A stretch of DNA of 42,886 nucleotides from Verrucomicrobiota bacterium (GTDB taxonomy: Bacteria; Verrucomicrobiota; Verrucomicrobiia; Verrucomicrobiales; Akkermansiaceae). Made by a program: the position numbers and the translations under genes. The stretch spans positions 1-42,886 of the forward strand of contig JAGWXY010000013.1 in the NCBI GenBank assembly GCA_018969605.1, read 5' to 3'. The notes under the pieces were generated by a model, which did no database searches, was not told the origin of the DNA, and saw nothing but the letters and a program-made list of their open reading frames with translations. This document shows positions 1 to 19,050 of the stretch, one piece after another. How positions within the stretch are numbered: the stretch's first letter is position 1; each line of letters opens with the position of its first letter.

Positions 1-3000
1 CACACCCAAGGCCAACTGTCACTGGTATCTTCACAAGTATACCCGTCCAGCCTCAGCTCATTCAACATCTTCGCTTACGAAGTCAATGACTGGAGTGAGG
101 CAACCAATTACACATCGGGATCTGTCATTCGCTTTGCCGGAAACTATTGGAAATCGACTCAAGACAACAGCGGTGTCACACCAGATACCACGCTCGCATG
201 GGAAGAGATTGATCTGGCTTACTCAGATGAGGAACCTGTCGCTTGGGATAAATCAACCTCATACCTTCGCGACCAAGTTGTAAGCACAGGCACGAGAGAC
301 AACAAAAAATACTGGATCGCTCTTGAAGAAAACGCAGGCAAAATTCCCAGCAATGAGTTGCCATGGACACTTCTGGACATCAATCCCGAGTTGATCGCCG
401 GCACGGTTGAAATCCATGGGACCCTGCCGTCCAACATGGTTTCCACGCCACTCTCTGCCGGTGGCGAGCTTTCAATCCAGGCGGCAAATATTATCCAAAG
501 TGGCATTCTGAGAGCCCCCATGGGATCCATTATTCTGGGATGGGACGGTAAGGACCTCAATCCCTACAACACGGTTTTGGATTCACCCAATGATCCAATT
601 GCCAACTCATCAATTCTCTCCCCCATCACCAAGAGCCTCAAACTTAGCTCCACAAGCGTCACTTCGGTTTCAGGAATCGATGAGACCGGTAAAGATTGGA
701 TCAGCCCGTACGGAATCAGCCCGGATGGACAATCGTGGATCGACCCAAGAGGCGTCAACATCACCACGAGTGGATTGCCTCAAAAGACAGTCAAGTTGAG
801 CGGTTCCATCGTGGATATGGATATCGGCTCGACAGTCGATATCCGTGGCGGCGGCGATCTCTTCGCAAGCCGTTGGATTGCCGGAAATGGTGGCAGCATC
901 AACCTTCTGGGGTCAACTGACGCAATCTGGACACCCGGCAACGAATACAAAGCGGGCGAACTTGTTCGATACAATGGCGAGACATGGTCAGCACGGGTCA
1001 AAAATTCAGGTCAAACTCCTACAGTCAGCCAATACTGGTCAAAAGTTCCCAAGTCCTTCGCCATCGTTCCATCATATAATTTTTCTGTCGCTCCTTACAA
1101 TGCCTACAACACGGGTTCCAATGCAAACGCTCTTGGCGGGGACAATGGATACACCGATATCAACATCTCCGCAGGAGACACCATCACCCTTGAGGGAAGC
1201 GATGTTCTAGCCGCCGGCACCTACACGCTTCTTCCAAGCAAATATGCCCTGCTTCCAGGCGCTGTGCTTGTGACCCCGCTAGCCGGATCCGGAATTGGTG
1301 TTTATCAAACCCTCGATGGTGCGGTGCAAGTCTCCGGCTTCACATCCAATACCTTCAACCGCCCATCGACAGATCCGGCTCTGCGCACCCGTTTCGAAAT
1401 AGCCTCCCAAGAAACCATCAAACAACGGGTTAAATACGAAACCTACTCGGCCAACAAATTCCTCGGCGACATTGCGCTCAACCTCGAACTCGCCAACCCG
1501 CAAGAACTTCCCCGTGACGCCGGATACGCGTCTTTCCAATCCGACTCATCGCTCAGACTCGCAGGCAAGGTGCTCACAGAAGCAAGCGGAATCGGTGCAA
1601 GAATCGATATCAGCAGCACTGGCATCATCAACATTCTTGGCGCAGGAACAGGTGCTGGCGAAATCATTGCAGGCCAATCGAATCTGGACGCCTCGACCCT
1701 CAGCTCATGGGGTGCGGCAAGTTTGCTCATAGGCGGCATTCGTCATGAAGATTCAACAGGCGTTTCAAAACTCGAAATCCGCACGAACCGCATCAACCTC
1801 AACAACGGTCAAACCACACTGACTGCACCGGACATCATCTTGGCATCAAAAGAAATTTTGAACATCGCCAACGGCTCCAGCATCGAAGCAATTGGCAACG
1901 ATGAGTTCGAAGCCGATGAATTTCATGTGTCGGGAGACGGAACACTCGTTCGAATCAGCGCCGATACAAATACCACGACACTTAGAGAGGAGGTCACAGG
2001 CTCCGACAAGCCCATGATGACCGTCGGATCAAATGTCCAAATCAACGGCAAATACGGATACTTCGATTCAACTTACGGTACTCAATTTGCAAATGATGCT
2101 GTTATCAACACGAACAACCTCATTCTCGCCAGCGGCCAGATCAGCATCGCATTCGATGCTGCAAGCGTAGACCCTACCAAAAATTTAATTTCGAAGCCTC
2201 ACCTTGTCCTGAATGGCAATCTTCTGACCAGCGCTCAGCAGGCAACAAGCCTTACGCTTCGCAGCTATTCCGGCATTGATATCTACGGCAATGGATCTCT
2301 CGGTGGCGAATCCATCGAAAACCTGTCACTTCTGGGCAACGGGATCCGTGCGTATCAAAATGGCGACGGCGATGTCTTGATCGATGCGCAAAAGATCACA
2401 TTCGGCAACCCTAACAAGCCATCAGCATGGAGCCCAAGCCCCTATGCAAGTGGTACACTTCAAGTATCGGCAAATACAATCCAACTGACAGCCGGCGACT
2501 TTTCGATTTTCGGCTATCAGGATGTCAATTTGTCCGCATTGGATGGGATATTCTTTAATGGAAAAGGCTCGCTCTCATCGGTTGGCAACATTCAGCCCCA
2601 ATCCCCATTCATCATCGGCTCGGGCGGATCCAACTATCAAATCAAGGCAGGCGGCGTTCTGGCATTGGATCGCAACGGCAACCTTACACCCGAGCAAACC
2701 TCTCTTGGAGCTTCCCTTGCACTCGAGGGATCCTCAATTTTCGCCAACACATTCATTGAGTTGAATAGCGGAAAAATTTCCCTCAAGGCATTCGAGGGCG
2801 ATATTCAGATCGGTGGCACACTCTCCGTTGCGGGCATCATGAAAAATTTCAATGATGTGACACGCTACTCCAACGCTGGCACCATCACTCTGGAATCTCT
2901 GTCAGGGGATGTCGTCCTAGAAGAGAAATCCTTAATATCCGTCGCCGCAAACAACAGCGGAGGAAACGCTGGTACGCTTCAAGCAAAGAGCGGGCTTGGA

Positions 3001-6000
3001 TCCTTCGTCAACTTGGGCTCCATCACAGGCTCAGCATCTGCAAATGCCATCTCAGGCTCCTTCCTGTTAGATGTCTATGAATTCAATGCTGTGGACGCCG
3101 GATCTTTGGCATCGATCAACCAGTCATTGGATTTGGGTGGATTCTATCAATCGAGAAACTTCCGAGCGAGAAATGGCAATGTCATCATTGATCATGACAT
3201 CCGCGCACGCGATTTCTCGATGGCGGCGGACAACGGCTCCATCACCGTCACGCATAAAATCGATGCCTCAGGTATCACCGGAGGCAATATCGCTCTCACT
3301 TCGCGTGACAGCCTCACTCTAGAAAACGGTGCCGCCCTCACGGTCGCGGCCGAGAAATTCGACAGCGCAGGCAAAGGTGGCTCCATCCTACTCGAAGCCG
3401 GCACCCAGCGCGATGGAAACGCCAACCTGTTTGCCACGCTTGGCATCAAAGCAGGCGCGTCGCTCGATCTGTCGGTGGCGGAATTCAAACCCGGAAAATA
3501 TGATGCCGTCGGCTCGAGCGCCTTTGGAGGAAAGTTCAGCGGCACCCTCCATCTGCGCGCACCGAGGACGGCAGGAAATGATGGTATCCTGATCGATCCC
3601 ATCGCGGGCACGATCACCGGAGCATCCTCCATCCTTGCCGAGGGCTTCAAAGTTTATCAACCCCTTGACGGCATCCTCAACATCGCACAGCGCGACCTCA
3701 TCGATAGCGATGCCAAAGCATATCTCGGCAACTCAGGCGTGGGCAATGCCAACGAAGCAGCGATGAGCGCCAAACTCCTCAATGGCAGCACTTCGATTGA
3801 CTCGATTCTGGTCATTGCTCCCGGCGCGGAACTGATCAATCCGACGGGTGATCTCATCCTCGGCCTTGCCAACAACAGCAGCTCAGGAACCACGAACAAA
3901 GAAGCACTCGCCGAAGCCGATTGGGATCTCTCCGGCTTCCGCTATGGCAAACTTGGCGCAGCGGGCGTCCTCACACTCCGCGCCCAAGGTGACCTGATCT
4001 TCAATAATACTCTTAGCGACGGATTCACACCCATCGCACAAGGAAGCGCCCAAGAATTTGCCGACAATGGCCACTCACGCATGTGGCTGGCACCTCTGGC
4101 AAAGATATCAGACTCCCTGCCTATCAACCTGCAGTCGTGGTCCTACCGCCTCTCCGCAGGAGCGGATACCAATGCCAGCTCTTCAAGCGCCGTACTCGGC
4201 ATTGACCAACTGGCATCCGCCAACAAGGGATCGATCCTTGTCGGAGAGTTTTACCCGGCGGTTCCGAATAACTCGGAAACAGGTCTGAACGCCGGCATCG
4301 GCACCAAAGGCCAAACCGCGGACACCATCAGGATTTCCAACACCACAACAAACAGAGGAAACCGATTTGAAGTCATCCGCACGGGAACCGGAATCATCAA
4401 CATCCATGCGGGTCGTGATGTCCAACTTCGCAACCAATTCGCCACAATCTACACAGCCGGTGTGGCAACGACGAATGCCAATAGCATTTTCAGTGCTAAT
4501 GATTTTGTCACACCCGTCATTCCGACTACCAACATCCACCCCAGCCAATCCGGAGCAGGCTTGACACTTGGTGAGTTCCAACAAGTCTATCAGCCAGCGT
4601 GGTCGATGGCAGGCGGCAACATCAACATTCAAGCAGGTCAAAACATTGCCCGCTACACACTAAACAATGGCGAACTGACCATCGACTCCAGCCGTCAGAT
4701 GCCGACAAACTGGCTTTATCGTCGCGGCCATGTCGATCCCACCACTGGATTGTTTGCTGACAACGGCGGCATCGATCGGGTTAGGGATACCGCCACATCA
4801 ACCACATGGTGGATCGATTACAGCAATTTCTTCCAAGGAGTGGGGACACTAGGTGGCGGCAACATTGCATTCAACGCAACCAAGGATGTCATCAATGTGG
4901 ATGCTGTGGCACCAACCAATGCGCGCATGGCAGGTCGTGACCCAAGCACCGGCAAAAATCTCGCGCCGGATCAAAACAAGCTATTGGAGTGGGGCGGTGG
5001 CGATGTCACCATTCTGGCCGGATCGGACATCAGCGGCGGCATCTACTATGTCGAACGCGGCAAAGGAACACTCAGCGCAGGCAATTCCATCACTACCAAC
5101 GCTGCAAGAACGCCCACACCTTCGACACTTGCAGGAGAAGAGCCTCTTGGCTCATCCACTTGGCTTCCAACCACGCTCTTTGTCGGCAAATCCGGTTTCG
5201 ATGTGGTCGCGCTCGGCGATATCCTCTTGGGCCCTGTAGCCAACACCTTCATGATGCCGCAAGGGCTGAACAACAAGTACTGGTACAAAACCTACTTCAG
5301 CACCTTGTCATCCGAGTCGTCACTTACCGCGACTTCTTACGGCGGCGATATCACCCATCGCAATAGCTCAACATTGCCCGAGGGCTCGAGCGCCACAAAC
5401 ATTTTGGCCAATTGGTTCAATGGTCAGAACCTTTATGTGGGAGAAGGATCTGCGAACAACTCGTCGCATTATCAGCCATGGATACGCCTGACAGAGACCG
5501 ACCTCAGCAACTTCTCATCAGCCTTCACGCTCACCACATCCAACTTTAGCAGCGCATCCTTCGGTGGAGATATCAATCTGGTTGGAAGCATCAGCCTTTC
5601 CCCTTCGGCTATTGGAAATCTTGAGCTCTTGGCAGCAGGTCAGCTCAATGGCCTCAACCCAACAGGAGAAGGCCTCCTGAATGGAGAAAAGGTTCAAGTC
5701 TGGACCAGCTCTTCGATCAATGTTTCGGATGCTGACCCCAATACAATCCCAAGGGTTAGCTCTCCGCTGGCTTACCAAAGCATCACCGGCAGGGACAAAG
5801 ACAAATCCATTGATTCCACACTAAACATCCTGCAAGGCGTCACTGCCGCGTTGACAGAGTCCGGCTCCTACTCAGGGCAATTTGCAAACGCCTACATCAA
5901 ATCAGCTCTTCACGGCGGAAGCATTCTTCATAAGGATGACAAAAATCCGATTCGCATCTATGCCTTGGGCAGCGATATCTCCGGACTCACGCTTTATGCT

Positions 6001-7485
6001 CCAAAACAAGCCCGCGTGATGGCCGAGCGCGACATCACCGACATCGCGCTCTACATTCAAAACACCGATATAAACGACATCACTCTCATTTCAGCAGGAC
6101 GCGACATCCTGCCTTACAACGAGAGCTCCCCCACCCGCTCGATCGCCAGTAACATAAGCGCAGGAAATCTGGTGGGCGATGAAACCCAATCCACCGTTGC
6201 TGGAAGGCCCAGCAATGCCATGGCGGGAGACATCCAAATCAGCGGCCCAGGTGTGCTCGAAGTACTCAGCGGAAGAAACATCGATCTCGGCACCGGCGCC
6301 AACTATTCCAACGGCACTGGCCTTGGCATCACCAGCATCGGCAACAACCGCAATCCAAACCTGCCCTTCACCGGTGCCGATATCATCGCCCTCAGCGGCG
6401 TTACCGGCGCATCTGGCACGGGCCCGGCCGATGGCATCGCCAACAGCTCAATGAGAATGTCTGATTTCACCAACAGATACCTCACCAATCCGGAAAGCTT
6501 CGCCTCCGCTTACCGCCAAAAGCTTGCCAACGGCATGACCTACGACCAGCTGAGCATTGAACAGCGCGCGATTGTTGGACTCGAAAAATTCTACTCGGTC
6601 CTCAACCAAAGCGGCAAAGACGCTTTGACAAGCGAATCAGATGACACCGACTACGAGGAAGGCTACGAAGCCATCAAGACCCTATTCGGCGAACAACCCA
6701 AGAAAGGCGAAATCCTGACCCGCGCCCGCGAAATTCGCACGATCACTGGTGGCTCCATCACGCTTTCTAGTGCAGCTGGCGGCATCACGATGGCCTCGGA
6801 AATCTTCGGCAATCCGCTCACCCCACCCGGCATCGTCACCGAATACGGCGGCAGCATTTCTACCTTCACCGACGGCAGCGTCGACATCGGCCAGGCCCGT
6901 ATCTTCACCCTCCGCGGTGGCGACATCATGATGTGGTCTTCAAAGGGCAACATCGCCGCAGGCACGGCTGCTCGCACTGTAGTGACCGCACCACCAACCC
7001 GCGTGGTTATCGATGTCAACAGCGCCAATGTCGAAACCGACCTCGGCGGTCTCGCCACCGGTGGCGGCATCGGCGTGCTCGCCTCAGTCGAAGGCGTGAA
7101 GGAAGGATCCGTCGGCTTGTTTGCACCCAAGGGCTTCATCGATGCCGGCGACGCAGGCATTCGCTCGACCGGCAACATTCAGATTGGCGCCCAAGTGGTG
7201 TTGAACTCCAGCAATATCAGTTCCGGCGGCGCGACTACCGGTGCCACCGTTGCCGCTCCCAGTGCCCCAAGCGTTTCCTCGGTCACAAGCGCATCCAATT
7301 CCTCCGCAGCCAGCACGGCCAGCACGCCCAAACCGGCAGAAAACAAACAGGAAGCCAACACACCCGCAGCGGACAATTCACTGCCGACGGTCTACACGGT
7401 AGAAGTCATTGGTTATGGCGGCGGATCGGGTGAGGATGAGGAAGATGATGAAGAAAAAAAATCTGAGCAAAACCCAACGCCCTGA
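1..7485 (+). CDS. Filamentous haemagglutinin-family (two-partner-secretion type) giant exoprotein, 5'-truncated by window edge
   Basis: The reading frame is open from base 1, so the true start lies left of the window; about 2,494 residues are visible. Most of it is glycine/asparagine/serine-rich with regular short beta-strand patterns (GGNI, AGRDI, SGGSI), as expected of a right-handed beta-helix. Codons 31-72, 82-124 and 310-349 hold three W-x(n)-Y-x(2)-G-x-V-x(n)-W modules that resemble chitin/cellulose-binding CBM5/12 repeats. The C-terminal part (about 6730-7230) matches the DUF3739 region of large FhaB-like proteins (IFTLRGGDI, WSSKGNI, APKGFIDAGDAGIRSTGNI). The end is an acidic tail after EVIGYGGG. 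By family knowledge these are exported through a TpsB/Omp85 pore and act as adhesins or matrix proteins. No TpsB is visible here. The Sel1 gene follows after 19 bp on the same strand. The family call is firm; function is inferred. Confidence 0.87.
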   Translation, partial: HTQGQLSLVSSQVYPSSLSSFNIFAYEVNDWSEATNYTSGSVIRFAGNYWKSTQDNSGVTPDTTLAWEEIDLAYSDEEPVAWDKSTSYLRDQVVSTGTRDNKKYWIALEENAGKIPSNELPWTLLDINPELIAGTVEIHGTLPSNMVSTPLSAGGELSIQAANIIQSGILRAPMGSIILGWDGKDLNPYNTVLDSPNDPIANSSILSPITKSLKLSSTSVTSVSGIDETGKDWISPYGISPDGQSWIDPRGVNITTSGLPQKTVKLSGSIVDMDIGSTVDIRGGGDLFASRWIAGNGGSINLLGSTDAIWTPGNEYKAGELVRYNGETWSARVKNSGQTPTVSQYWSKVPKSFAIVPSYNFSVAPYNAYNTGSNANALGGDNGYTDINISAGDTITLEGSDVLAAGTYTLLPSKYALLPGAVLVTPLAGSGIGVYQTLDGAVQVSGFTSNTFNRPSTDPALRTRFEIASQETIKQRVKYETYSANKFLGDIALNLELANPQELPRDAGYASFQSDSSLRLAGKVLTEASGIGARIDISSTGIINILGAGTGAGEIIAGQSNLDASTLSSWGAASLLIGGIRHEDSTGVSKLEIRTNRINLNNGQTTLTAPDIILASKEILNIANGSSIEAIGNDEFEADEFHVSGDGTLVRISADTNTTTLREEVTGSDKPMMTVGSNVQINGKYGYFDSTYGTQFANDAVINTNNLILASGQISIAFDAASVDPTKNLISKPHLVLNGNLLTSAQQATSLTLRSYSGIDIYGNGSLGGESIENLSLLGNGIRAYQNGDGDVLIDAQKITFGNPNKPSAWSPSPYASGTLQVSANTIQLTAGDFSIFGYQDVNLSALDGIFFNGKGSLSSVGNIQPQSPFIIGSGGSNYQIKAGGVLALDRNGNLTPEQTSLGASLALEGSSIFANTFIELNSGKISLKAFEGDIQIGGTLSVAGIMKNFNDVTRYSNAGTITLESLSGDVVLEEKSLISVAANNSGGNAGTLQAKSGLGSFVNLGSITGSASANAISGSFLLDVYEFNAVDAGSLASINQSLDLGGFYQSRNFRARNGNVIIDHDIRARDFSMAADNGSITVTHKIDASGITGGNIALTSRDSLTLENGAALTVAAEKFDSAGKGGSILLEAGTQRDGNANLFATLGIKAGASLDLSVAEFKPGKYDAVGSSAFGGKFSGTLHLRAPRTAGNDGILIDPIAGTITGASSILAEGFKVYQPLDGILNIAQRDLIDSDAKAYLGNSGVGNANEAAMSAKLLNGSTSIDSILVIAPGAELINPTGDLILGLANNSSSGTTNKEALAEADWDLSGFRYGKLGAAGVLTLRAQGDLIFNNTLSDGFTPIAQGSAQEFADNGHSRMWLAPLAKISDSLPINLQSWSYRLSAGADTNASSSSAVLGIDQLASANKGSILVGEFYPAVPNNSETGLNAGIGTKGQTADTIRISNTTTNRGNRFEVIRTGTGIINIHAGRDVQLRNQFATIYTAGVATTNANSIFSANDFVTPVIPTTNIHPSQSGAGLTLGEFQQVYQPAWSMAGGNINIQAGQNIARYTLNNGELTIDSSRQMPTNWLYRRGHVDPTTGLFADNGGIDRVRDTATSTTWWIDYSNFFQGVGTLGGGNIAFNATKDVINVDAVAPTNARMAGRDPSTGKNLAPDQNKLLEWGGGDVTILAGSDISGGIYYVERGKGTLSAGNSITTNAARTPTPSTLAGEEPLGSSTWLPTTLFVGKSGFDVVALGDILLGPVANTFMMPQGLNNKYWYKTYFSTLSSESSLTATSYGGDITHRNSSTLPEGSSATNILANWFNGQNLYVGEGSANNSSHYQPWIRLTETDLSNFSSAFTLTTSNFSSASFGGDINLVGSISLSPSAIGNLELLAAGQLNGLNPTGEGLLNGEKVQVWTSSSINVSDADPNTIPRVSSPLAYQSITGRDKDKSIDSTLNILQGVTAALTESGSYSGQFANAYIKSALHGGSILHKDDKNPIRIYALGSDISGLTLYAPKQARVMAERDITDIALYIQNTDINDITLISAGRDILPYNESSPTRSIASNISAGNLVGDETQSTVAGRPSNAMAGDIQISGPGVLEVLSGRNIDLGTGANYSNGTGLGITSIGNNRNPNLPFTGADIIALSGVTGASGTGPADGIANSSMRMSDFTNRYLTNPESFASAYRQKLANGMTYDQLSIEQRAIVGLEKFYSVLNQSGKDALTSESDDTDYEEGYEAIKTLFGEQPKKGEILTRAREIRTITGGSITLSSAAGGITMASEIFGNPLTPPGIVTEYGGSISTFTDGSVDIGQARIFTLRGGDIMMWSSKGNIAAGTAARTVVTAPPTRVVIDVNSANVETDLGGLATGGGIGVLASVEGVKEGSVGLFAPKGFIDAGDAGIRSTGNIQIGAQVVLNSSNISSGGATTGATVAAPSAPSVSSVTSASNSSAASTASTPKPAENKQEANTPAADNSLPTVYTVEVIGYGGGSGEDEEDDEEKKSEQNPTP

Positions 7486-9567: not shown

Positions 9568-10875
9568 TTAAGGAGCAACAACGCCGCCGTCAGATGGACG
9601 GATGACAGCCATGTCAGCAACCGGGATTCCTGCAGTACCGATGTTGGCTGGGATAGCGGCTTTGATGCCATCGTAAACCAACCTGTTGTTTCCGGAGTAG
9701 GAGCTATTACGGGCGTACATTTGCTGGTATCCCCAAGCGGTGTAAGCACCGTTGGTGACCTTCGCTTTGTCGGCCGCACTAAGCGTAGTCCCGCTGGCGG
9801 CGATGCCGTCAAGCTTGACGCCGTTGAACGCGCAGAACACCGCGCCTGACGCACGAGCAGTGGCAGCATCCGAAATAGTGATCCAAGTCACGAGGTCAGC
9901 TTTGCCTCCATCTTGGAGAACATCGGTTCCATTGGCATCATAGACAGTCACATTGGCTGCTGTTTTGGCCATATGGCCACGGATAACACTTCCGGAGAAA
10001 TAGCCGCCGTTACCGTCGATATCTTGCCCCCAAACGGTCGATGCACTTGTGGAATCATTTACACCGTTGGCACCGCTGCCCACACCACCTGCAGCCGCTT
10101 TGCGGAGCGTGGTGATCGTATCAGTAGTGCCGCCTGTAATCATAAACTGGTTTACAGGATTCGTGATTCCGTAACCAGTTTCCGCAAGGTAGGCTGTACG
10201 GGTGCCGGAACCGTCGTTACGACCGACCGCATATACCAAGGATTCATCAGCCGTAACACCTGTAAAAAGGCTGAGCGGTTGGCTACCATTAGAGAATAGC
10301 GCACGAAATTGCTTGCTGGTCACGTTTGTAATGGTCGAGCCTTCATTGGTGAGCATGGTGAAAACCACTACGCCGACCTGTGGGGATGCAGGTGAAAGCG
10401 TGCTAGCCGCAAAAGGGGTCGAGTTCTTGGTCACATCGGAGAAAGCGATTTCCGACTGGGACGCCTCGACGCTTTTGGCAAAACCAACGGTGTCCTTGTG
10501 AGTCTCGCCACCGTTAGCAGCAGGAGCAGTCACGAAGTTGCCATTCACGTTTTGGTAGTACTCAGGGTTGTAGGTAGTATCCACGAGGGCACGAATACCT
10601 TCAACCGAGCCGTTCCATGAGCAGCGCACGACCGTCTCTCCATTGACACCTTGGAAGGTCCCCTTGAAAATGGCCTTGTTGGCGCCGCTGACACCACCGG
10701 AAGCGGCATCGTGTGCGTATTGATAGTTACCACCAGCCGCAAATTTGGCACGGATGGCTGCGATGGCCGCCGAGCGGAAAGCCGTGGCTCCCGTGATATC
10801 GACGACGGTTTGGGAATAAGCGGGCGCTGCAAGAGCAAGGCCAAGCAGACCGCATGCGATGGATGTTGTTTTCAT
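9568..10875 (-). CDS. PstS-like secreted substrate-binding-domain protein
   Basis: 435 residues from ATG 10875. An upstream in-frame extension was rejected because this start gives a clean signal peptide (MKTTSIACGLLGLALAAPAYSQ). The mature protein opens with DITGATAFRSAAIAAIRAKF. It then has the hallmarks of the PBP_like_2/PstS fold: IAFSDV, a VVVFTMLTNEGSTITNVTSKQ segment (equivalent to 'I..lt..q...if.G'), and VGRNDGSGTRTAYL, matching the R-x-x-GSGT ligand loop of phosphate-binding proteins. No permease or ATPase genes are adjacent, so it may be a surface or periplasmic binding protein rather than part of a local ABC transporter. It starts 31 bp after the stop of the PEP-CTERM gene on the same strand, suggesting an operon, and a terminator follows. 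The ligand is unknown. No Shine-Dalgarno is visible (leader CTACTACAACAAA). Confidence 0.8.
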   Translation of the reverse strand: MKTTSIACGLLGLALAAPAYSQTVVDITGATAFRSAAIAAIRAKFAAGGNYQYAHDAASGGVSGANKAIFKGTFQGVNGETVVRCSWNGSVEGIRALVDTTYNPEYYQNVNGNFVTAPAANGGETHKDTVGFAKSVEASQSEIAFSDVTKNSTPFAASTLSPASPQVGVVVFTMLTNEGSTITNVTSKQFRALFSNGSQPLSLFTGVTADESLVYAVGRNDGSGTRTAYLAETGYGITNPVNQFMITGGTTDTITTLRKAAAGGVGSGANGVNDSTSASTVWGQDIDGNGGYFSGSVIRGHMAKTAANVTVYDANGTDVLQDGGKADLVTWITISDAATARASGAVFCAFNGVKLDGIAASGTTLSAADKAKVTNGAYTAWGYQQMYARNSSYSGNNRLVYDGIKAAIPANIGTAGIPVADMAVIRPSDGGVVAP

Positions 10876-10906: not shown

Positions 10907-11827
10907 TTATGCGTTGCGACGACGACGGCGGAAGGCGAGAGCGCCTGCGCCAAGACCAAGGAGCATCACAGAGGATGGCTCAGGAACAGCGGAGAAACCA
11001 ACGACACCACTTGAATTGATGGTAATCGTTCCTTCGTAGGTACTGGTGCGGAGCGGAATCGGATTCCCCTCTGAGTCAAGACCCGCGGTGATGGTTCCTG
11101 CGCCGCCATTCGTTGCAAGAATCCGATGAAGATCCAAGGCAAACTCGACGTTGCTGACATCACCAAAACTTCCGAGAGAAGTTGCGGTGCCCTTTTGTGC
11201 CACACCCCCAGCAAGGCTGCCGAAAGCAGTATCCAGGATTCCAGAGGCAAAGAAGGGGTTTTGATCATCAATATTGGAATCAGCGACGCCGACTTGCAGA
11301 ATGTCATTCGTCCCAAGAAACTTAGTGTTCATCGAAATGATTCTGCCTGCGATCGTGGTCATGTCCGTGTTACCTAAACCAGATCTAATACCTGGATCAC
11401 TCACTAGGTCGTTCGCTACAGATGTGTAGATTGTTCTATTTGGGTCACCGTTTACCGCAGCGGCAGTCGTACTGGTACTGCCCGATCTTGCCGCCGCAAG
11501 ACCTGCATACAGATTGGTCATGCTTGCCCACCCAGCACCAAATGCTGTGGTAAGCGTAGTGCTGAGGTTGGTCACCGCTGCTTCACTCTGGGTGCTGCCG
11601 CGGGACTCGAGGATGTTGGCGACAGCTGTGGCATCTTGCGATCCAGCTGCTGCACCACGGTAGGTGTAGGCCTGTCCAAGGTTCACATATACAGTTTCAC
11701 TGCCGTTCTCCTGGAAGAAGAACAGCACGAGGTCACCGGCCACATATGAGGCGGCGTTGGATGTTGTCGCAGCAACCAATGACCCGGAGGCCACGAGCAA
11801 TGCCGCAAGTTTGTTTTTCAATTTCAT
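10907..11827 (-). CDS. PEP-CTERM sorting-domain secreted protein
   Basis: 306 residues. Signal peptide MKLKNKLAALLVASGSLVAA with cleavage likely near SNA. The main domain begins with AGDLVLFFFQENGSETVYVNLG, a pattern shared by many verrucomicrobial PEP-CTERM proteins. The C terminus is a classic tripartite tag: VPEPSS, a short hydrophobic helix (VMLLGLGAGALAF) and RRRRRNA. By family knowledge this tag is recognised by an exosortase (none in this window) and links the protein to extracellular polymer export or surface anchoring. The first 280 or so residues are a close paralogue of residues 1-270 of the 1789-residue protein beyond the insertion sequence. Its promoter region (11828-12005) contains the TGTGAC-N6-GTCACA palindrome. 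It is first gene of a probable two-gene unit with the PstS-like gene. Confidence 0.92.
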   Translation of the reverse strand: MKLKNKLAALLVASGSLVAATTSNAASYVAGDLVLFFFQENGSETVYVNLGQAYTYRGAAAGSQDATAVANILESRGSTQSEAAVTNLSTTLTTAFGAGWASMTNLYAGLAAARSGSTSTTAAAVNGDPNRTIYTSVANDLVSDPGIRSGLGNTDMTTIAGRIISMNTKFLGTNDILQVGVADSNIDDQNPFFASGILDTAFGSLAGGVAQKGTATSLGSFGDVSNVEFALDLHRILATNGGAGTITAGLDSEGNPIPLRTSTYEGTITINSSGVVGFSAVPEPSSVMLLGLGAGALAFRRRRRNA

Positions 11828-11947
11828 ATGGTGTTGGTATTATTTGTTGTTTGAGCTCCGGCGGATCTGCTCGTCAGCTAGCGACGCACAGGCCATCGAA
11901 GACGCTTAAAATTAGGCTCTCGGACACTCTCCCGCCTATGGTTTTGA

Positions 11948-11965
11948 TGTGACTTATTCGTCACA
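11948..11965 (-). promoter_or_regulatory. Candidate operator TGTGAC-N6-GTCACA upstream of the PEP-CTERM gene
   Basis: A perfect inverted repeat with 6-bp arms and a 6-bp centre (TTATTC on the plus strand). It ends 120 bp upstream of the PEP-CTERM start codon. The same arms and spacing occur at 13570-13587 before the paralogous gene, while the surrounding sequence does not match. The half-site TGTGA resembles CRP/FNR-family half-sites, but the spacer between TGTGA and TCACA is 8 rather than 6. The regulator is unknown. Confidence 0.5.
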
Positions 11966-11996
11966 ATCCGCCCTTTTCTAACGCCAAACAAAAAAC

Positions 11997-12005
11997 AGCT
12001 CAAAT
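11997..12005. repeat. Left copy of 9-bp target-site duplication
   Basis: AGCTCAAAT lies immediately outside the left inverted repeat and recurs at 13310-13318 immediately outside the right one. This is the expected footprint of insertion. Confidence 0.93.
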
Positions 12006-13309
12006 CACGGGTGTCCGGTTGTAACTACCACAGATTCAGTTGGTTAGGATCTGAGTTAGTAAAAGATCTGTGGTCGGTTTCCATAAGTAGTTGATTTAGA
12101 GTGACTTTCTCAAACGGATGAACGCTCAAAACCTGCAAAGTTCTGTGGAGTGTGCCGGGCAGCTTGAGCCGCTTGTGGAGGATCGCAATCATGAGGTAGG
12201 TGCACACCGCGATCCAGATCTGGGTCTTCACCGCGTTGGGGCTCGTACCGTAGTAGTGCTTGATCCGGAGGTGGCCCTTGATCCAGCGGAAGAACAATTC
12301 GATGCGCCAGCGCAGCTTGTAGAGCATGGCCACGGTAAGCGCGGGAATTTCGAGATGGTTGGTCAGGAACACGAGTGGCTTGCCGGTTTCCAAGTCGAGG
12401 TATTTGACGCGCCGCAAAAGCATCGGAAAGTCGTCTCTCGATTTTTGGATCGTGGGTTTGCCTATGTGATCGCTGCGCAATCCGGTCAACCGGTTCACTT
12501 GGTTGGAGTAATGCCTTGTGAAGCGCAGGTTGGCTTTGGCGCGTGTGACAAAGAAGGCACCGGCATTGGCGATGAGAGCCAGGCGGGCAAAATCCATGTA
12601 GCCGCGATCCATCAGGTAAAACGCGCCGGCCTCGAAGAACAGTTCGTCGAGCCAGCCCACATCGTGCTGCCGGGCCCCTGTAATGCAGATGCAAGTGGGA
12701 ATCGGGCCTCGCAAGTCGATCTGCGTGTGCATCTTGATTCCAGCCTTGGTCTGGCGAAAGTCCGCCCAGTTGAAGAGCGTGAGCGACAGGTCGATCGTGG
12801 TCGAATCCAGGGCATAGATCGTGTTGTCCAGATCGACACCGAGATCCTCGCCGACGTAAAGCGGCCTTGCCTTGCGAATGAGGCTCTTGGCGAGGTCCTC
12901 CCAAATCCGCCAGTCGCGCGATTCGTTGGCATCGGCAAGTGTCGATCTGGCGACCTTCCCGGTGAAGCCAAGATGATAGAGGGTCTCGGGACGAGCATTG
13001 AGACAGGTGGCGATATCGCGCAATCCATCCCTGGAGGTAAGTTGGGCAAACACCATGCAGATGAACTGCTGACGAAATCCAAAGTGTCGAGCGGCGGTGT
13101 TCGGTTCGTATTTCGAGACGAGTCGAGAGAGCGTTTGCCAGTGAACCAAATCCAGAATCTGAGAGAGAATATAACGGCCAGCATTCATGAGCCGAGAGCG
13201 TCACCTGAACGCCAACGGACTTCAAATCCCTCACATCTATTTTTGCTTCTAAGTTACTCATAAACAGAGACTTCTAAATCCCAATAGTCGATTGAACCGG
13301 ACACCCGTG
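12006..13309 (-). mobile_element. Complete IS4-family insertion sequence, 1304 bp
   Basis: Bounded by perfect 15-bp terminal inverted repeats: CACGGGTGTCCGGTT at 12006-12020 and its reverse complement at 13295-13309. It is flanked by 9-bp direct repeats AGCTCAAAT. It carries one uninterrupted transposase gene on the minus strand, whose stop is only 5 bp from the left inverted repeat; about 105 bp lie between the start codon and the right inverted repeat. Intact ends, intact gene and exact target duplication point to a recent insertion. It lies between the two divergent PEP-CTERM-type paralogues without breaking either. Confidence 0.96.
12025..13188 (-). CDS. IS4-family transposase (DUF4372 + DDE domain)
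   Basis: 387 residues. The N terminus (MNAGRYILSQILDLVHW) and the FAQLTSRDGLRDIATCL and STLADANESRDWRI stretches match the DUF4372 domain of IS4-type transposases. The DDE catalytic core is complete: D128 in ALDSTTIDL, D194 in LMDRGYMDF, and E297 within a perfect Y(2)R(3)E(6)K signature (Y290, R293, E297, K304), the hallmark of the IS4 family. Length is normal and no frameshift is seen, so the enzyme is probably active. The start at 13188 is supported by similarity of the first residues to the family. Long open frames in other phases over this gene are by-products of its GC-rich codons. Confidence 0.96.
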   Translation of the reverse strand: MNAGRYILSQILDLVHWQTLSRLVSKYEPNTAARHFGFRQQFICMVFAQLTSRDGLRDIATCLNARPETLYHLGFTGKVARSTLADANESRDWRIWEDLAKSLIRKARPLYVGEDLGVDLDNTIYALDSTTIDLSLTLFNWADFRQTKAGIKMHTQIDLRGPIPTCICITGARQHDVGWLDELFFEAGAFYLMDRGYMDFARLALIANAGAFFVTRAKANLRFTRHYSNQVNRLTGLRSDHIGKPTIQKSRDDFPMLLRRVKYLDLETGKPLVFLTNHLEIPALTVAMLYKLRWRIELFFRWIKGHLRIKHYYGTSPNAVKTQIWIAVCTYLMIAILHKRLKLPGTLHRTLQVLSVHPFEKVTLNQLLMETDHRSFTNSDPNQLNLW

Positions 13310-13318
13310 AGCTCAAAT
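13310..13318. repeat. Right copy of 9-bp target-site duplication
   Basis: AGCTCAAAT, identical to 11997-12005, directly after the right inverted repeat of the insertion sequence. Confidence 0.93.
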
Positions 13319-13569
13319 AACCAAAAAAAAGACTGCCGCACAGGCATATCATTGACGCCTGGAAATCGAACCGTGCAGGCGTCATAACGATTGTCCGCCA
13401 CCCGCAGTTGGCGCACCGAACAAACTGCCGCATTCACTCGCCAGTGGAAAAAATTGGCCAAAGAAACTGAATAAAAAACGCTGGGAGTCTGTCAACTGTA
13501 AGCGAGATATGACCTTATGATCCACCAGACAATATGTTCTCCATGCAACCAAAAAATAATGAAACAAAA
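13319..13569. other. Non-coding stretch between the insertion sequence and the operator
   Basis: I see no credible gene here. It is AT-richer than its surroundings. It holds one hairpin with 8-bp perfect arms, GACGCCTG (13354-13361) and CAGGCGTC (13376-13383), with a 14-nt loop and no T-run on either side, so it is not a convincing terminator. Before the insertion this stretch joined directly to the sequence now left of 12006. Confidence 0.5.
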
Positions 13570-13587
13570 TGTGACAATTGTGTCACA
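13570..13587 (+). promoter_or_regulatory. Candidate operator TGTGAC-N6-GTCACA upstream of the 1789-residue paralogue
   Basis: Same 6-bp arms and 6-bp spacing as at 11948-11965, here with centre AATTGT, ending 93 bp before the ATG at 13681. A weak promoter-like pair follows (TTGTCG, 17 nt, TTAAAG), which would place the palindrome just upstream of the -35 element, as for an activator site. That promoter call is weak. Confidence 0.5.
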
Positions 13588-13680
13588 TGAATCCCTTGTC
13601 GGGTTCAAAGAGTAAGTTTTAAAGGTGAAACACTTCGCCATTTCTAACCTTTTTTTCAAATTCTACAAACCATTTGTCCC

Positions 13681-16600
13681 ATGAACCTCAAGCGCAGATT
13701 AGGCTCTTTCTTTCTCACCATTTTCGCCACCCTCATGGCAGCTCCCCTTGCTGCCAATGGCGGCACCTACACGGCAGGTGACCTTGTGCTGTTCTTTTTC
13801 CAAGAGAATGGCAGCCAAACTATTTACGTCAATCTTGGCCCAGCATACACCTATCGCGGCAATGCAGCAGGCCCACAGGATGCCCCAAAGAATTTAAACA
13901 TCCTGGATATCAAGAGCGCCCTCGACCAAGCATATGGAACCGATTGGGCGACCAAGGACAATGTCTATGCAGGTCTTGCAGCAGTAAGATCCAATAGTAC
14001 CAGCACGGCTGCTGCTGCCGTTAACGGTGACCCGGGAAGAACAATCTACACATCCGTAGCGAACGACCTAGTGAGTGATCCAGGTAATAGATCTGGTTTA
14101 GGTAACACTGACATGACCTCTATCGCGAACGGTATTATTTCGATGAATACGAGATTTCCCGCAAATGTCGACTATGCTGTTGTGCCATCTGCGGACTCAT
14201 TCATTCCAGGGCAAAACCCCTTCTTAGCGCCTGGAATCCTTGATACTGCATTCAATAGTCTTGCTGGAGGTGTGGCGCAAAAGGGCACCGCTGGATCTCT
14301 CGGAAGTTTTGGAAATGTTAGCAATGTCGAATTTGCCCTCGATCTGCATCGGATTCTTGCAACGAATGGCGGCAGCGGCACCATCACCGGTGGCCTTGAC
14401 TCTGCTGGAAATCCCGTCCCCATTCGTACCAGCACCTACGAAGGCACCATCACGATCAACTCCAGCGGCGTCGTGGGTTTTTCTGCAGTCCCACCCGCAG
14501 CCATCACCATCAGTGGTAACCTTGCAAGCTTGAGCAGCACGGCCGGTAACGCATCCAGTACCACGAGCTTCACGGTCTCCGGTGCAAACATGAAGCAAGC
14601 CATCACGATCAACGCGCCAAATGGCTTCGAGGTTTCGACATCACCCACTTCTGGTTTCTCCGGCAGCATCACGGTCGGAGCCGCTGGAACAATCGAAAGC
14701 ACCACCATCTATGTACGCCTCTCCGCCAGCGCCGAACTTGGCACTTACAGCGGCGACATCACCCTCATCAGCGGGTCGGCTGCCCGAACAATCGCAACAG
14801 CTACAAGCACTGTTACAGCCACGGCTGCCAACCCGGTCATCTCCGTTTCCGGAGGCCTCACCGTCCTAAGCACCACCTACGGTACCGCATCATCCACCAG
14901 CAACTTCACCATTTCCGGCACGAACATGACGGCACCGGTCACCGTCACCGCACCGGCGGGCTTCCAGGTTTCCACCTCATCTACCTCTGGATTCGCCCCC
15001 AGCATCAGTGTTCCTGCATCCGGCACCCTTTCCAACACCACCATCCATGTCCGCCTCTCTCCCACTGCCGACGCAGGAACCTACAGCGGCAACATCAGCC
15101 TCACCAGCACCGGCGCCACCGAAAAAACCATCGCTACAGCCAGCAGCACAATCAGCAAGGCCGCGCAGACAATCGATGCCATCGCCAGCATCAGCAACAA
15201 GGCCTTTGGCGATGCTGCGTTTGCAGTCACTGCGCCATCCTCATCCAGCAGCTTGCCAGTGACTTTGAGCGTGAAGTCAGGACCGGCGACGATTTCCGAT
15301 AACACCGTCACACTCACTGGCGCTGGCACTGTGGTACTTGCGGCCAACCAATCGGGCAATGCCAACTACAACGCGGCGGCGGAAGTGACAACGAGCTTCT
15401 CGGTTTCGAAAGCAGCACAGACGATCGGAGCCTTCACCAGCATCGGCAACAAGACTTTTGGCGACGCTCCTTTTGCGGTCACAGCGCCAACGGCCAGCAG
15501 TGGCTTGGCCATAACTTTGAGCGTCAAGTCTGGTCCAGCGACCATCTCGGGCAACATCGTGACCATCACAGGTGCTGGCACGGTGGTGCTTGCGGCCAAT
15601 CAGGCGGGTAACGCTGACTATGCAGCCGCCACGGAAGTGACGACCAGCTTCTCGGTAGCGAAAGTAGCTCAAACGATTGGGGCATTCATCAGCATCAGCA
15701 ACAAGACTTTTGGCGACGCACCGTTCGCGGTCATAGCGCCATCCTCATCCAGCAGCTTGCCGGTGACTTTGAGCGTGAAGTCAGGCCCGGCGACCATCTC
15801 GGGAAATACCGTGACGCTCACTGGTGCCGGCACGGTAACGCTAGCCGCCAACCAGGCAGGCAGTGACAACTATGCCGCAGCCCCTGAAGTGACGACGACT
15901 TTTTCAGTTGCCAAAGCCACCCCAACCCTCACCAGCAGCCCCACCGCGAGTTCCATCAAAAAAGGGCAAAATCTTTCCCAATCAAATCTCGCCGGAGGGT
16001 CAGCATCCGCTGCTGGTGTATCAGTTTTTGGAAATTTCGCTTTTGCCAATCCGAGCACCGCTCCCGAAGCAGGCACCGCAAACCATAGCGTAATTTTCAC
16101 ACCTACAGAAATCGCCAATTACAACACCTTCACACTTGATGTATCTGTGACTGTCAATGAAAGCAGCCTTCCTGCGCTTACAAGCCCTAGCACAAGCAGC
16201 GGTGTTTGTTTCCAGCCCTTTCAATATCAGATCACTGCAACGAACAACCCCACCGGATTTGCTGCCAACAATCTGCCGGAAGGACTGTCCATCAATACTG
16301 GCACGGGATTGATCTCCGGCACCCCAACAAAAGCGGGCGCATATGATGTCGCACTCAGCATAACCAATACCGCTGGCGATTTCGGATCGTCGCTTAAAAT
16401 CACAGTCAACAAGGCTGCCCAGACGATTGCTCCCTTCACCAGCATTGGCAACAAGGCCTTTGGCGATGCGCCTTTTGCAATTACCGCGCCCACAGCAAGC
16501 AGCAGCCTTCCAATAACTTTGAGCGTAAAATCAGGTCCGGCGACCATTTCGGGCAACACCGTGACGCTTACTGGAGTAGGCACAGTTACGCTGGCCGCGA

Positions 16601-19050
16601 ATCAAGCGGGCAATGACAACTACACCTTGGCCCAGGAGGTAACTACGAGCTTCCCGGTTTCGAAAGGCACGAAAGGCACCCAAACGATCGGGACATTCAC
16701 CAGCATTGGCAACAAGACCTTTGGCGATGCACCTTTTGCGATCACAGCGCCAGCAGCCAGCAGTGGCTTGGCCGTGAGTTTTAGCGTCAAGTCTGGCCCG
16801 GCGACGATTTCCGGCAACACTGTGACACTCACCGGAGCGGGTATCGTCGAGATCGCCGCCAACCAAGCGGGCAATGACAATTACAACCCTGCCACTGAAG
16901 TAACGACGAGCTTCACCGTCTCGAAAGGCCCTCAAACGATTGGGCCCTTCTCCAGCATCGGCACCAAGGCCTTTGGCGAAGCGCCCTTTGCAGTCTCGGC
17001 TCCATCCTCAACCAGCAGCTTGCCGGTAACCTTGAGCGTCAAGTCAGGCCCGGCGACGATTTCGGGCAACACCGTGACGCTCACCGGAGCAGGCACCGTC
17101 GAGATCGCAGCCAATCAAGAGGGTAATGCGAATTACAATGCTGCCACGGAAGTGATTACCAGCTTCTCGGTTTCGAAAGGCACTTCCACCGTCACGCTTG
17201 GAAGCCTCTCACCCACCTACGATGGCACAGCCAAATCAGCCACAGCAACCACCAGTCCGACCATCACAGGCAACGTGACCTACACGTACACGGGGATCAG
17301 TCCCACCGTTTATGCACAATCCACCACCCCGCCAACTCAAGCTGGAAGCTACACCGTGGTTGGAACCATCAACGATGCCAACTACAGCGGCAACGCGACG
17401 GGCACTTTGGTAATCACCAAGGCAACTCCCAGCATCACCACAAAACCAAATGCTTCCAACATCACACTCGGCCAAAAACTCTCTGACTCCACGCTCAGCG
17501 GTGGCATCGGCTCAGTGAATGGCACCTTCGCATTCACCAATCCAAACACCCAGCCAAGCACCGCCGGTACAAGCAGCCAAAGTGTCACATTTACCCCTGC
17601 CGACACCAACAATTACCTCACAACCACAACTTCAATCGACATCGTCACTCAGGCAGGATCAAGTCCTGTCATCACAACCCAACCGATCGATCTCACCATA
17701 TCGCAAGGCAATAGTGCTACTTTTTCGGTTCAAGCCACCGGCCAAAACCTGAGTTACCAATGGAAAAGAAACGGCCTTGATATCAACAACGCAAGGAATA
17801 GTTCGTACACCGTCAGCAGCACATCGATTGCCACAGCGGGAGAATACTCAGTCGTAGTATCCAGCGACAATGGCAGTCAACCCATCACCAGCCGTGCAGC
17901 CAAACTGATCGTCACATTCCCTCTTGCCGATCTCTCCATCAATGAGAACACCAGCCCTGTTCTGAGCGTTTCCGTTACTGGTACAGGTCTGAAATACCAG
18001 TGGTTCAAAGACGGCACGCCGCTTCGTGGACAAACCAATTCGACACTGACACTCAAAGACATCACAGTCGATCAAGCTGGTACCTACAGCGTCGAAGTGA
18101 CCGATGCCAATGGCAACAAATTCACAAGCCAGTCATCCAAAGTCAGTGTCAATGCGGTACTTCCCGTGATCACCACTCAACCAAGCAATGTAAGCGTCTA
18201 TACCGGTGGTAGCGCTACCATGCGCGTCTTGGTCAAGGGTGCCGGCCACGCTTACCAATGGCGAAAGAACGGCATCAATATTCCCGGTGAAACAAGAAAT
18301 ACCCTTACATTGACCGACATCATTCTCGCAGATGCTGGCGAATACTCAGTTTCCATCACCAACTCAGTTGGAAGCGTCACCAGCCGATCTGCAAGGCTGC
18401 GCGTTCTTGCTTCGAATTCTAACAACCAAGGTGGTGCCACTGCTCGCCCCACCATCACATCTCACCCGATTTCGCAAACAGTTGCCGATGGTAGTCGAGT
18501 CATGATGAGCGTGAATGCAAGCGGCGGCGGGCTCCTTTACCAGTGGACGAGAAACCGCCAAAATATCACGGGAGCAAACCAATCCTCATACACCATCCCT
18601 GCCGCCTCTTCCTCGGATTCCGGTGATTATGCAGTGATTGTTTATAATTCACTGGGAACGGTGACCAGCAACATCGCTCGAATTGCCATCTCAGCGCCGG
18701 AGATCGATGTCCAACAACCTGCTGGTAGCAGCTTGGTTTCCAGCACCTCAAAAATCAGCTTCGGCACAGCAAAAACGACCAGCAACGGTATTGTGAGGAC
18801 ATTCACCATCCGAAACACCGGCACGACCAAGCTCACTGGCATTTCCTTCAGCAAGTCGGGCAGTCACCAAAGCGATTTCACCGTCACCCAATCCAATCTG
18901 CGTGAAGTAGCACCGGGGGCATCAGCCACCTTCACTGTCACCTTCAAGCCGGCAGCCATAGGCGCTCGTACCGCCTCCATCCGCATAGCCAGCAACGATC
19001 GCGATGAAAACCCCTTCATCATCAATCTCGCTGGCGAAGGCGCGCGTTGA
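13681..19050 (+). CDS. 1789-residue modular secreted protein: PEP-CTERM-paralogue head, repeats, Ig-like and ASH-type domains
   Basis: Signal peptide MNLKRRLGSFFLTIFATLMA. Residues about 27-270 are a close paralogue of the PEP-CTERM protein at 10907-11827; similarity stops at VGFSAVP, exactly where that protein continues with EPSS. Two modules of about 100 residues follow (TVSGANMKQAITINAPNGFEVS type). Then come six copies of an 84-residue module (QTIGAFTSIGNKTFGDAPF), a putative-Ig (He_PIG-like) module (LPEGLSINTGTGLISGTP) and MBG-like modules (SPTYDGTAKSATATTSP). Four Ig-like domains with the W...Y.V pattern (YQWKRNG, YQWFKDG, YQWRKNG, YQWTRNR) follow, and last a choice-of-anchor-D/ASH domain (SFGTAKTTSNGIVRTFTIRN ... 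ASNDRDENPF). No PEP-CTERM tag, LPXTG or beta-barrel is seen at the end, so how it is held on the cell is unclear. An adhesive or matrix role is inferred. Confidence 0.9.
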   Translation: MNLKRRLGSFFLTIFATLMAAPLAANGGTYTAGDLVLFFFQENGSQTIYVNLGPAYTYRGNAAGPQDAPKNLNILDIKSALDQAYGTDWATKDNVYAGLAAVRSNSTSTAAAAVNGDPGRTIYTSVANDLVSDPGNRSGLGNTDMTSIANGIISMNTRFPANVDYAVVPSADSFIPGQNPFLAPGILDTAFNSLAGGVAQKGTAGSLGSFGNVSNVEFALDLHRILATNGGSGTITGGLDSAGNPVPIRTSTYEGTITINSSGVVGFSAVPPAAITISGNLASLSSTAGNASSTTSFTVSGANMKQAITINAPNGFEVSTSPTSGFSGSITVGAAGTIESTTIYVRLSASAELGTYSGDITLISGSAARTIATATSTVTATAANPVISVSGGLTVLSTTYGTASSTSNFTISGTNMTAPVTVTAPAGFQVSTSSTSGFAPSISVPASGTLSNTTIHVRLSPTADAGTYSGNISLTSTGATEKTIATASSTISKAAQTIDAIASISNKAFGDAAFAVTAPSSSSSLPVTLSVKSGPATISDNTVTLTGAGTVVLAANQSGNANYNAAAEVTTSFSVSKAAQTIGAFTSIGNKTFGDAPFAVTAPTASSGLAITLSVKSGPATISGNIVTITGAGTVVLAANQAGNADYAAATEVTTSFSVAKVAQTIGAFISISNKTFGDAPFAVIAPSSSSSLPVTLSVKSGPATISGNTVTLTGAGTVTLAANQAGSDNYAAAPEVTTTFSVAKATPTLTSSPTASSIKKGQNLSQSNLAGGSASAAGVSVFGNFAFANPSTAPEAGTANHSVIFTPTEIANYNTFTLDVSVTVNESSLPALTSPSTSSGVCFQPFQYQITATNNPTGFAANNLPEGLSINTGTGLISGTPTKAGAYDVALSITNTAGDFGSSLKITVNKAAQTIAPFTSIGNKAFGDAPFAITAPTASSSLPITLSVKSGPATISGNTVTLTGVGTVTLAANQAGNDNYTLAQEVTTSFPVSKGTKGTQTIGTFTSIGNKTFGDAPFAITAPAASSGLAVSFSVKSGPATISGNTVTLTGAGIVEIAANQAGNDNYNPATEVTTSFTVSKGPQTIGPFSSIGTKAFGEAPFAVSAPSSTSSLPVTLSVKSGPATISGNTVTLTGAGTVEIAANQEGNANYNAATEVITSFSVSKGTSTVTLGSLSPTYDGTAKSATATTSPTITGNVTYTYTGISPTVYAQSTTPPTQAGSYTVVGTINDANYSGNATGTLVITKATPSITTKPNASNITLGQKLSDSTLSGGIGSVNGTFAFTNPNTQPSTAGTSSQSVTFTPADTNNYLTTTTSIDIVTQAGSSPVITTQPIDLTISQGNSATFSVQATGQNLSYQWKRNGLDINNARNSSYTVSSTSIATAGEYSVVVSSDNGSQPITSRAAKLIVTFPLADLSINENTSPVLSVSVTGTGLKYQWFKDGTPLRGQTNSTLTLKDITVDQAGTYSVEVTDANGNKFTSQSSKVSVNAVLPVITTQPSNVSVYTGGSATMRVLVKGAGHAYQWRKNGINIPGETRNTLTLTDIILADAGEYSVSITNSVGSVTSRSARLRVLASNSNNQGGATARPTITSHPISQTVADGSRVMMSVNASGGGLLYQWTRNRQNITGANQSSYTIPAASSSDSGDYAVIVYNSLGTVTSNIARIAISAPEIDVQQPAGSSLVSSTSKISFGTAKTTSNGIVRTFTIRNTGTTKLTGISFSKSGSHQSDFTVTQSNLREVAPGASATFTVTFKPAAIGARTASIRIASNDRDENPFIINLAGEGAR
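15154..15909 (+). repeat. Three tandem 252-bp coding repeats (84 residues each)
   Basis: Units start at 15154, 15406 and 15658, each exactly 252 bp. They encode the module with AAQTI, NKTFGD, VKSGPATISGN and GTVTLAANQ. Exact length conservation and long stretches of near-identical DNA indicate unequal crossing-over or slippage within the gene. Confidence 0.85.
16408..17178 (+). repeat. Second array: three more copies of the 84-residue module
   Basis: Three units start near 16408, 16660 and 16921. They encode the same module as 15154-15909 but are separated from it by about 500 bp encoding two unrelated modules. The middle unit carries a small KGTKGT extension, so unit length varies slightly here, unlike in the first array. 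Confidence 0.82.

Follow-up and report, generated by a model that had tools for sequence, protein, structure and literature searches.

In Escherichia coli, PhoB binds DNA head to tail, and a canonical PHO box consists of direct repeats (PMC4415409). The box of the Desulfovibrio vulgaris PhoB (DVU1083) is likewise built of repeats, of the form (c/t)GT(n)AC, and its targets are pst and phoU genes (PMC3333781). In Pseudomonas aeruginosa, the two-partner secretion (TPS) system pdtA/pdtB is expressed on phosphate starvation (PMC7035377), and in marine bacteria the glycosyltransferase and phospholipase genes of plcP-agt carry a Pho box and serve in lipid remodelling (PMC4796936).

Our sequence-based computational analysis of a 42,886-nucleotide stretch of a Verrucomicrobiota genome, hereafter the window, concerns two divergent genes, PEP1 and PEP2, each preceded by the palindrome TGTGAC-N6-GTCACA. 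The earlier note suggested that this palindrome could be the operator of an unknown regulator of surface-protein genes. It does behave as a selected operator, but the same site is the operator of phoB, pst and phoU, and the regulator is very probably PhoB, the familiar bacterial switch for phosphate shortage. We predict with high confidence that both palindromes are clade-specific PHO boxes, i.e. PhoB operators, and PEP1 and PEP2 are most likely part of the response to phosphate starvation, not targets of an unknown regulator. The box shares with the E. coli PHO box (CTGTCAT direct repeats) its 18-bp unit, its 11-bp pitch and its location before phoB and pst, upstream of the promoter core (PMC4415409); it differs in its half-site, which is TGTGAC or nGTCAC, and in its favoured form, which is mirror-symmetric. 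The GTNAC core with a free middle base is the same as in the D. vulgaris box (PMC3333781).

Two sites between divergent genes

The features of the locus are as follows.

9568 to 10875, minus strand: exported protein with a predicted PstS fold, encoded downstream of PEP1; translation probably starts at 10875, with the M of MKTTSIAC
10907 to 11827, minus strand: PEP1, a 306-residue exported protein with a C-terminal PEP-CTERM sorting signal (PF07589, E = 2.4e-7)
11948 to 11965, minus strand: predicted PHO box of PEP1, an exact match that reads TGTGACGAATAAGTCACA in the direction of the gene; its half-sites, TGTGAC and AGTCAC, have an 11-bp pitch
12005 to 13310, no strand assigned: IS4-family insertion with transposase at 12025-13188 and terminal repeats TCACGGGTGTCCGGTT
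13570 to 13587, plus strand: predicted PHO box of PEP2, also an exact match, TGTGACAATTGTGTCACA; its half-sites, TGTGAC and TGTCAC, again have an 11-bp pitch
13681 to 19050, plus strand: PEP2, a 1789-residue paralogue of PEP1, with its N-terminal part followed by MBG/Ig-like repeats

Pattern matching in the window confirmed both palindromes as exact and at the distances first described, 120 bp from the PEP1 start codon at 11827 (minus strand) and 93 bp from the PEP2 start codon at 13681 (plus strand). It also confirmed that the window holds no third exact copy, the sole other match with two mismatches or fewer, at 12544, lying within the transposase gene. A CRP-type site, which the earlier note had also discounted, is ruled out by the spacing of 8 between TGTGA and TCACA, as against 6 in the CRP site TGTGA-N6-TCACA. 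The description of the two genes as PEP-CTERM-type paralogues holds in part: PEP2 is 71% identical to PEP1 over ~280 N-terminal residues, but the PEP-CTERM signal is present in PEP1 only, PEP2 having no PF07589 match, no PEP-CTERM and a C-terminal end that reads ...NLAGEGAR. When a position weight matrix trained only on promoters of phoB and tpsB taken from other genomes was run over the window, the PEP2 site ranked first (26.0 bits) and the PEP1 site second (23.8 bits), the next best match scoring 10.4 bits.

The IS4-family element looks intact and lies between the two divergent promoters, leaving both boxes and promoters whole. On either side it has a copy of the duplicated 7-bp target, GCTCAAA (11998-12004 and 13311-13317), and the gap before the insertion was about 540 bp.

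Distribution of the site and its target genes

Searches of the whole genome (2.43 Mb) with the pattern, followed by fetching of stretches of the genome, gave four exact TGTGAC-N6-GTCACA sites and none for the reversed control, so that chance does not account for the motif. Two are those of the window (C26:11948 and C26:13570); the other two (C54:9783 and C12:313) played no part in defining the pattern and thus provide an independent test. The C54:9783 site stands just before phoB-phoR, a gene for an OmpR-type response regulator followed by one for a PAS histidine kinase, and the C12:313 site precedes tpsB, encoding a ShlB-type TPS transporter. In addition, a copy with one mismatch (C54:24264) precedes a gene whose product joins a GT4 glycosyltransferase to a calcineurin-like phosphoesterase, and two copies with two mismatches, 84 bp apart, are found between pstS and phoU. 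Whereas P. aeruginosa pdtA/pdtB works via the sigma factor VreI and PhoB, the predicted PHO box here stands directly before tpsB. The fusion protein (L017:6235-8190, G000 C54) looks like a one-protein version of the plcP-agt route of membrane-lipid remodelling; it differs from plcP-agt in having the glycosyltransferase and calcineurin-like phosphoesterase domains joined in one 652-residue protein.

The response regulator encoded behind the C54:9783 site has the domains PF00072 and PF00486, and the adjacent kinase has HisKA and HATPase_c. The best NCBIfam model for the regulator is TIGR02154 (5e-64), but with 215.6 bits against an equivalog cut-off of 296.2, and the best models for the kinase are PnpS/PhoR. 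The regulator is 41% identical to E. coli PhoB, for which the sequence used here matched the PDB PhoB entries, and the two are alike in the recognition-helix stretch (RTLDTHMKRLRQKL vs RTVDVHIRRLRKAL).

A regulator devoted to PEP-CTERM or exopolysaccharide genes would account for a site common to two paralogues of a PEP-CTERM family, and D. vulgaris has such a regulator in DVUA0057, which controls PEP-CTERM genes in that organism, where no link between PhoB and PEP-CTERM is reported (PMC3333781). However, none of eight other PEP-CTERM genes scanned in this genome has a site within two mismatches, and most copies elsewhere stand at phosphate genes, which leaves this explanation very little probability. 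The scan covered eight of the nine other PEP-CTERM ORFs found, two with short upstream sequence, with start codons guessed as the first ATG. A regulator of surface-protein genes as such, as first suggested, is very improbable. These eight site-free genes, together with the sites at phoB and tpsB genes selected by protein (see below), strongly disfavour a general PEP-CTERM regulator.

The 36 other genomes of the same genus contain 84 exact sites, distributed over 32 genomes, and no match to the control. We inspected the downstream genes in 60 regions with 64 exact sites, a set chosen by the motif: by our count, 19 of these sites lie before phoB, and with the other phosphate genes included (pstS, pstB, phoU, OprP-type phosphate-selective porins and a Na/Pi cotransporter) the number rises to about 40; a further 7 lie before tpsB, and about 11 have no assigned target. 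For an unbiased test, genes were picked by protein homology, with no reference to the motif. The phoB genes selected in this way (n=30) have an exact site in 29 cases and a site with one mismatch in the other, 45-49 bp before the gene; for tpsB (n=27), 14 sites are exact and 25 have two mismatches or fewer. The coding and reversed-pattern controls for these promoters rarely fell under four mismatches. When pstS and phoU were taken alone, sites with up to two mismatches were seen in 5/29 and 2/30 cases, respectively. In several genomes, the site is missing at pstS because a porin gene stands in front of it and bears the site; a likely reason for the low phoU count is the location of phoU inside the pst operon.

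The divergent PEP pair and its neighbours (TPS exoprotein, PstS-fold gene, PEP1 and PEP2) are kept together in at least 8 genomes, and the eight closest orthologous pairs have near-matches in the shared promoter region. Unsupervised expectation maximization, run with no preset pattern on a non-redundant set of 61 promoters of tpsB and PEP genes that included none of phoB, returned TGTGACgATTTCGTCACA. The near-matches kept in orthologous PEP promoters, along with exact sites across the genus, bear out the earlier view that the palindrome is held by selection. PEP1 and PEP2 being paralogous and 71% identical in their N-terminal regions, the shared site could have been a functionless leftover of their duplication, or else due to chance. 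Against this stand the exact sites at unrelated genes, the conservation throughout the genus, the zero control matches and the fixed promoter geometry, and we give such an origin next to no credence; the 84 exact sites in relatives against a control of 0, with the protein-selected promoters, refute it.

In another genome (L101:12229-12716, G036 C128), four near-matches cluster in the stretch that separates a second phoB-like gene from the gene for the glycosyltransferase fusion. Exported lamin-tail-domain and choice-of-anchor-I proteins are encoded directly behind exact sites in two other regions (L118:1-1674 and L138:2581-4554), and it is possible that these are Pho-regulated secreted enzymes. 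A genome of another family (G046) has ten copies of the reversed control ACACTG-N6-CAGTGT, compared to 0 or 1 elsewhere, perhaps as a repeat or as another operator.

Half-site arrangement and promoter geometry

Among protein-selected loci, mostly from this genus, GTNAC-N6-GTNAC occurs at 120 sites, compared to 6-12 at neighbouring spacings. Because the reverse complement of the half-site core GTNAC is again GTNAC, a repeat with an 11-bp pitch also reads as a palindrome, and the two forms are told apart by the middle base and the flanks only. The middle bases of the 120 sites are G then C in 101 cases and C and C (or G and G) in 8; C then G never occurs. The genus thus favours the mirror-symmetric form, unlike the E. 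coli box, and the plain direct repeat is rarer. The phoB promoters of other families of the order have direct repeats with the same pitch and at the same place, in the form TGTGAC-N5-TGTGAC (G042, G090) or TGTCAC-N5-CGTCAC (G052, G097). As judged from these sequences, the feature conserved across families is the 11-bp pitch.

A mirror-symmetric site is what homodimeric helix-turn-helix proteins prefer, and another dimeric regulator, of the CRP/FNR or GntR type for example, might bind it as an inverted repeat and control the phosphate genes, including phoB. The direct repeats of the same pitch at orthologous phoB promoters misfit a strict head-to-head dimer, however, while the spacing and the GTNAC half-site agree with known PhoB boxes (PMC3333781, PMC4415409), and two genomes with no phoB match (G008 and G024, both incomplete) also have no exact motif. 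We consider such a regulator improbable, and favour PhoB as the presumed binder, with tandem binding and induction by low phosphate as the predicted mode of action.

The sequence downstream of the site is also constrained. TT(G/C) is found at offset 9 past the site in 24/30 phoB, 22/25 tpsB and 7/10 PEP2 promoters, the PEP1 promoters have T.G at the same offset, and phoB promoters have a conserved TA at offset 33. The TT(G/C) at +9 and the TA at +33 place the site just upstream of a predicted -35 element, with a position that is fixed relative to a sigma-70 promoter. While E. coli PHO boxes overlap the -35 position, the box here ends about 9 bp before the -35-like element. The corresponding elements of the window are these.

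11933 to 11938, minus strand: PEP1 -35-like element TAGGCG, at +9 from the box; fits the PEP1 family consensus TaGgc (column conservation in 17 PEP1 promoters)
11909 to 11914, minus strand: putative PEP1 -10-like element TAATTT, at +33 from the box, the offset of the conserved TA of phoB promoters
13596 to 13601, plus strand: PEP2 -35-like element TTGTCG, 8 bp past the box rather than the usual 9
13619 to 13624, plus strand: weak, putative PEP2 -10-like element TTAAAG, placed by spacing only

The two leaders had been described as otherwise unlike, but both have a -35-like and a -10-like element, at about +8/9 and +31/33 past the site.

A predicted role in phosphate starvation

PEP1 and the gene downstream of it probably form one operon. 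The product of this second gene has no Pfam match, but did match in profile and fold searches: its family profile matches PstS1 (4exl, E = 1e-5), its AlphaFold2 model has a pLDDT of 84.5, and the top 32 Foldseek matches are all phosphate-binding or DING proteins. The neighbour of PEP1 is thus predicted, by profile and model, to encode a PstS-fold protein. This neighbour and the PHO boxes support a phosphate-starvation role of the PEP pair from two sides.

According to the mechanism that we propose, low phosphate would lead the sensor kinase PhoR to phosphorylate PhoB, which, as a tandem dimer, would bind both GTNAC half-sites, set at a pitch of 11 bp immediately before the -35 element; the bound PhoB would recruit RNA polymerase. 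PEP1, the PstS-fold gene that follows it and PEP2 on the opposite strand would be switched on as members of the Pho regulon, which would also comprise phoB-phoR, pst-phoU, the lipid-remodelling gene and the two-partner secretion transporter. It is conceivable, if rather doubtful, that the PEP-CTERM protein, the PstS-fold protein, the repeat-rich PEP2 and the TPS exoprotein make up a surface coat that is induced by phosphate starvation and captures extracellular phosphate. We found no description of such a use of PEP-CTERM in the searchable literature, and a literature search for a tie between PEP-CTERM and the Pho regulon gave co-mention only, with the two unconnected.

The proposed assignment turns an 'unknown regulator' into one that is testable, and the clade-specific PHO-box consensus, about TGTGACRAWTTYGTCACA, is usable for calling Pho regulons in a poorly studied group. 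The predicted phosphate-starvation response gains PEP-CTERM surface proteins, an exported protein with a PstS fold and a two-partner secretion system. Positions 1-7485 of the window encode a very long TPS exoprotein of the filamentous-haemagglutinin type (PF12545), which runs past the left edge. In relatives, this exoprotein shows synteny with the PEP/PstS-fold cluster, and the tpsB transporter gene of the present genome lies on another contig, behind an exact site.
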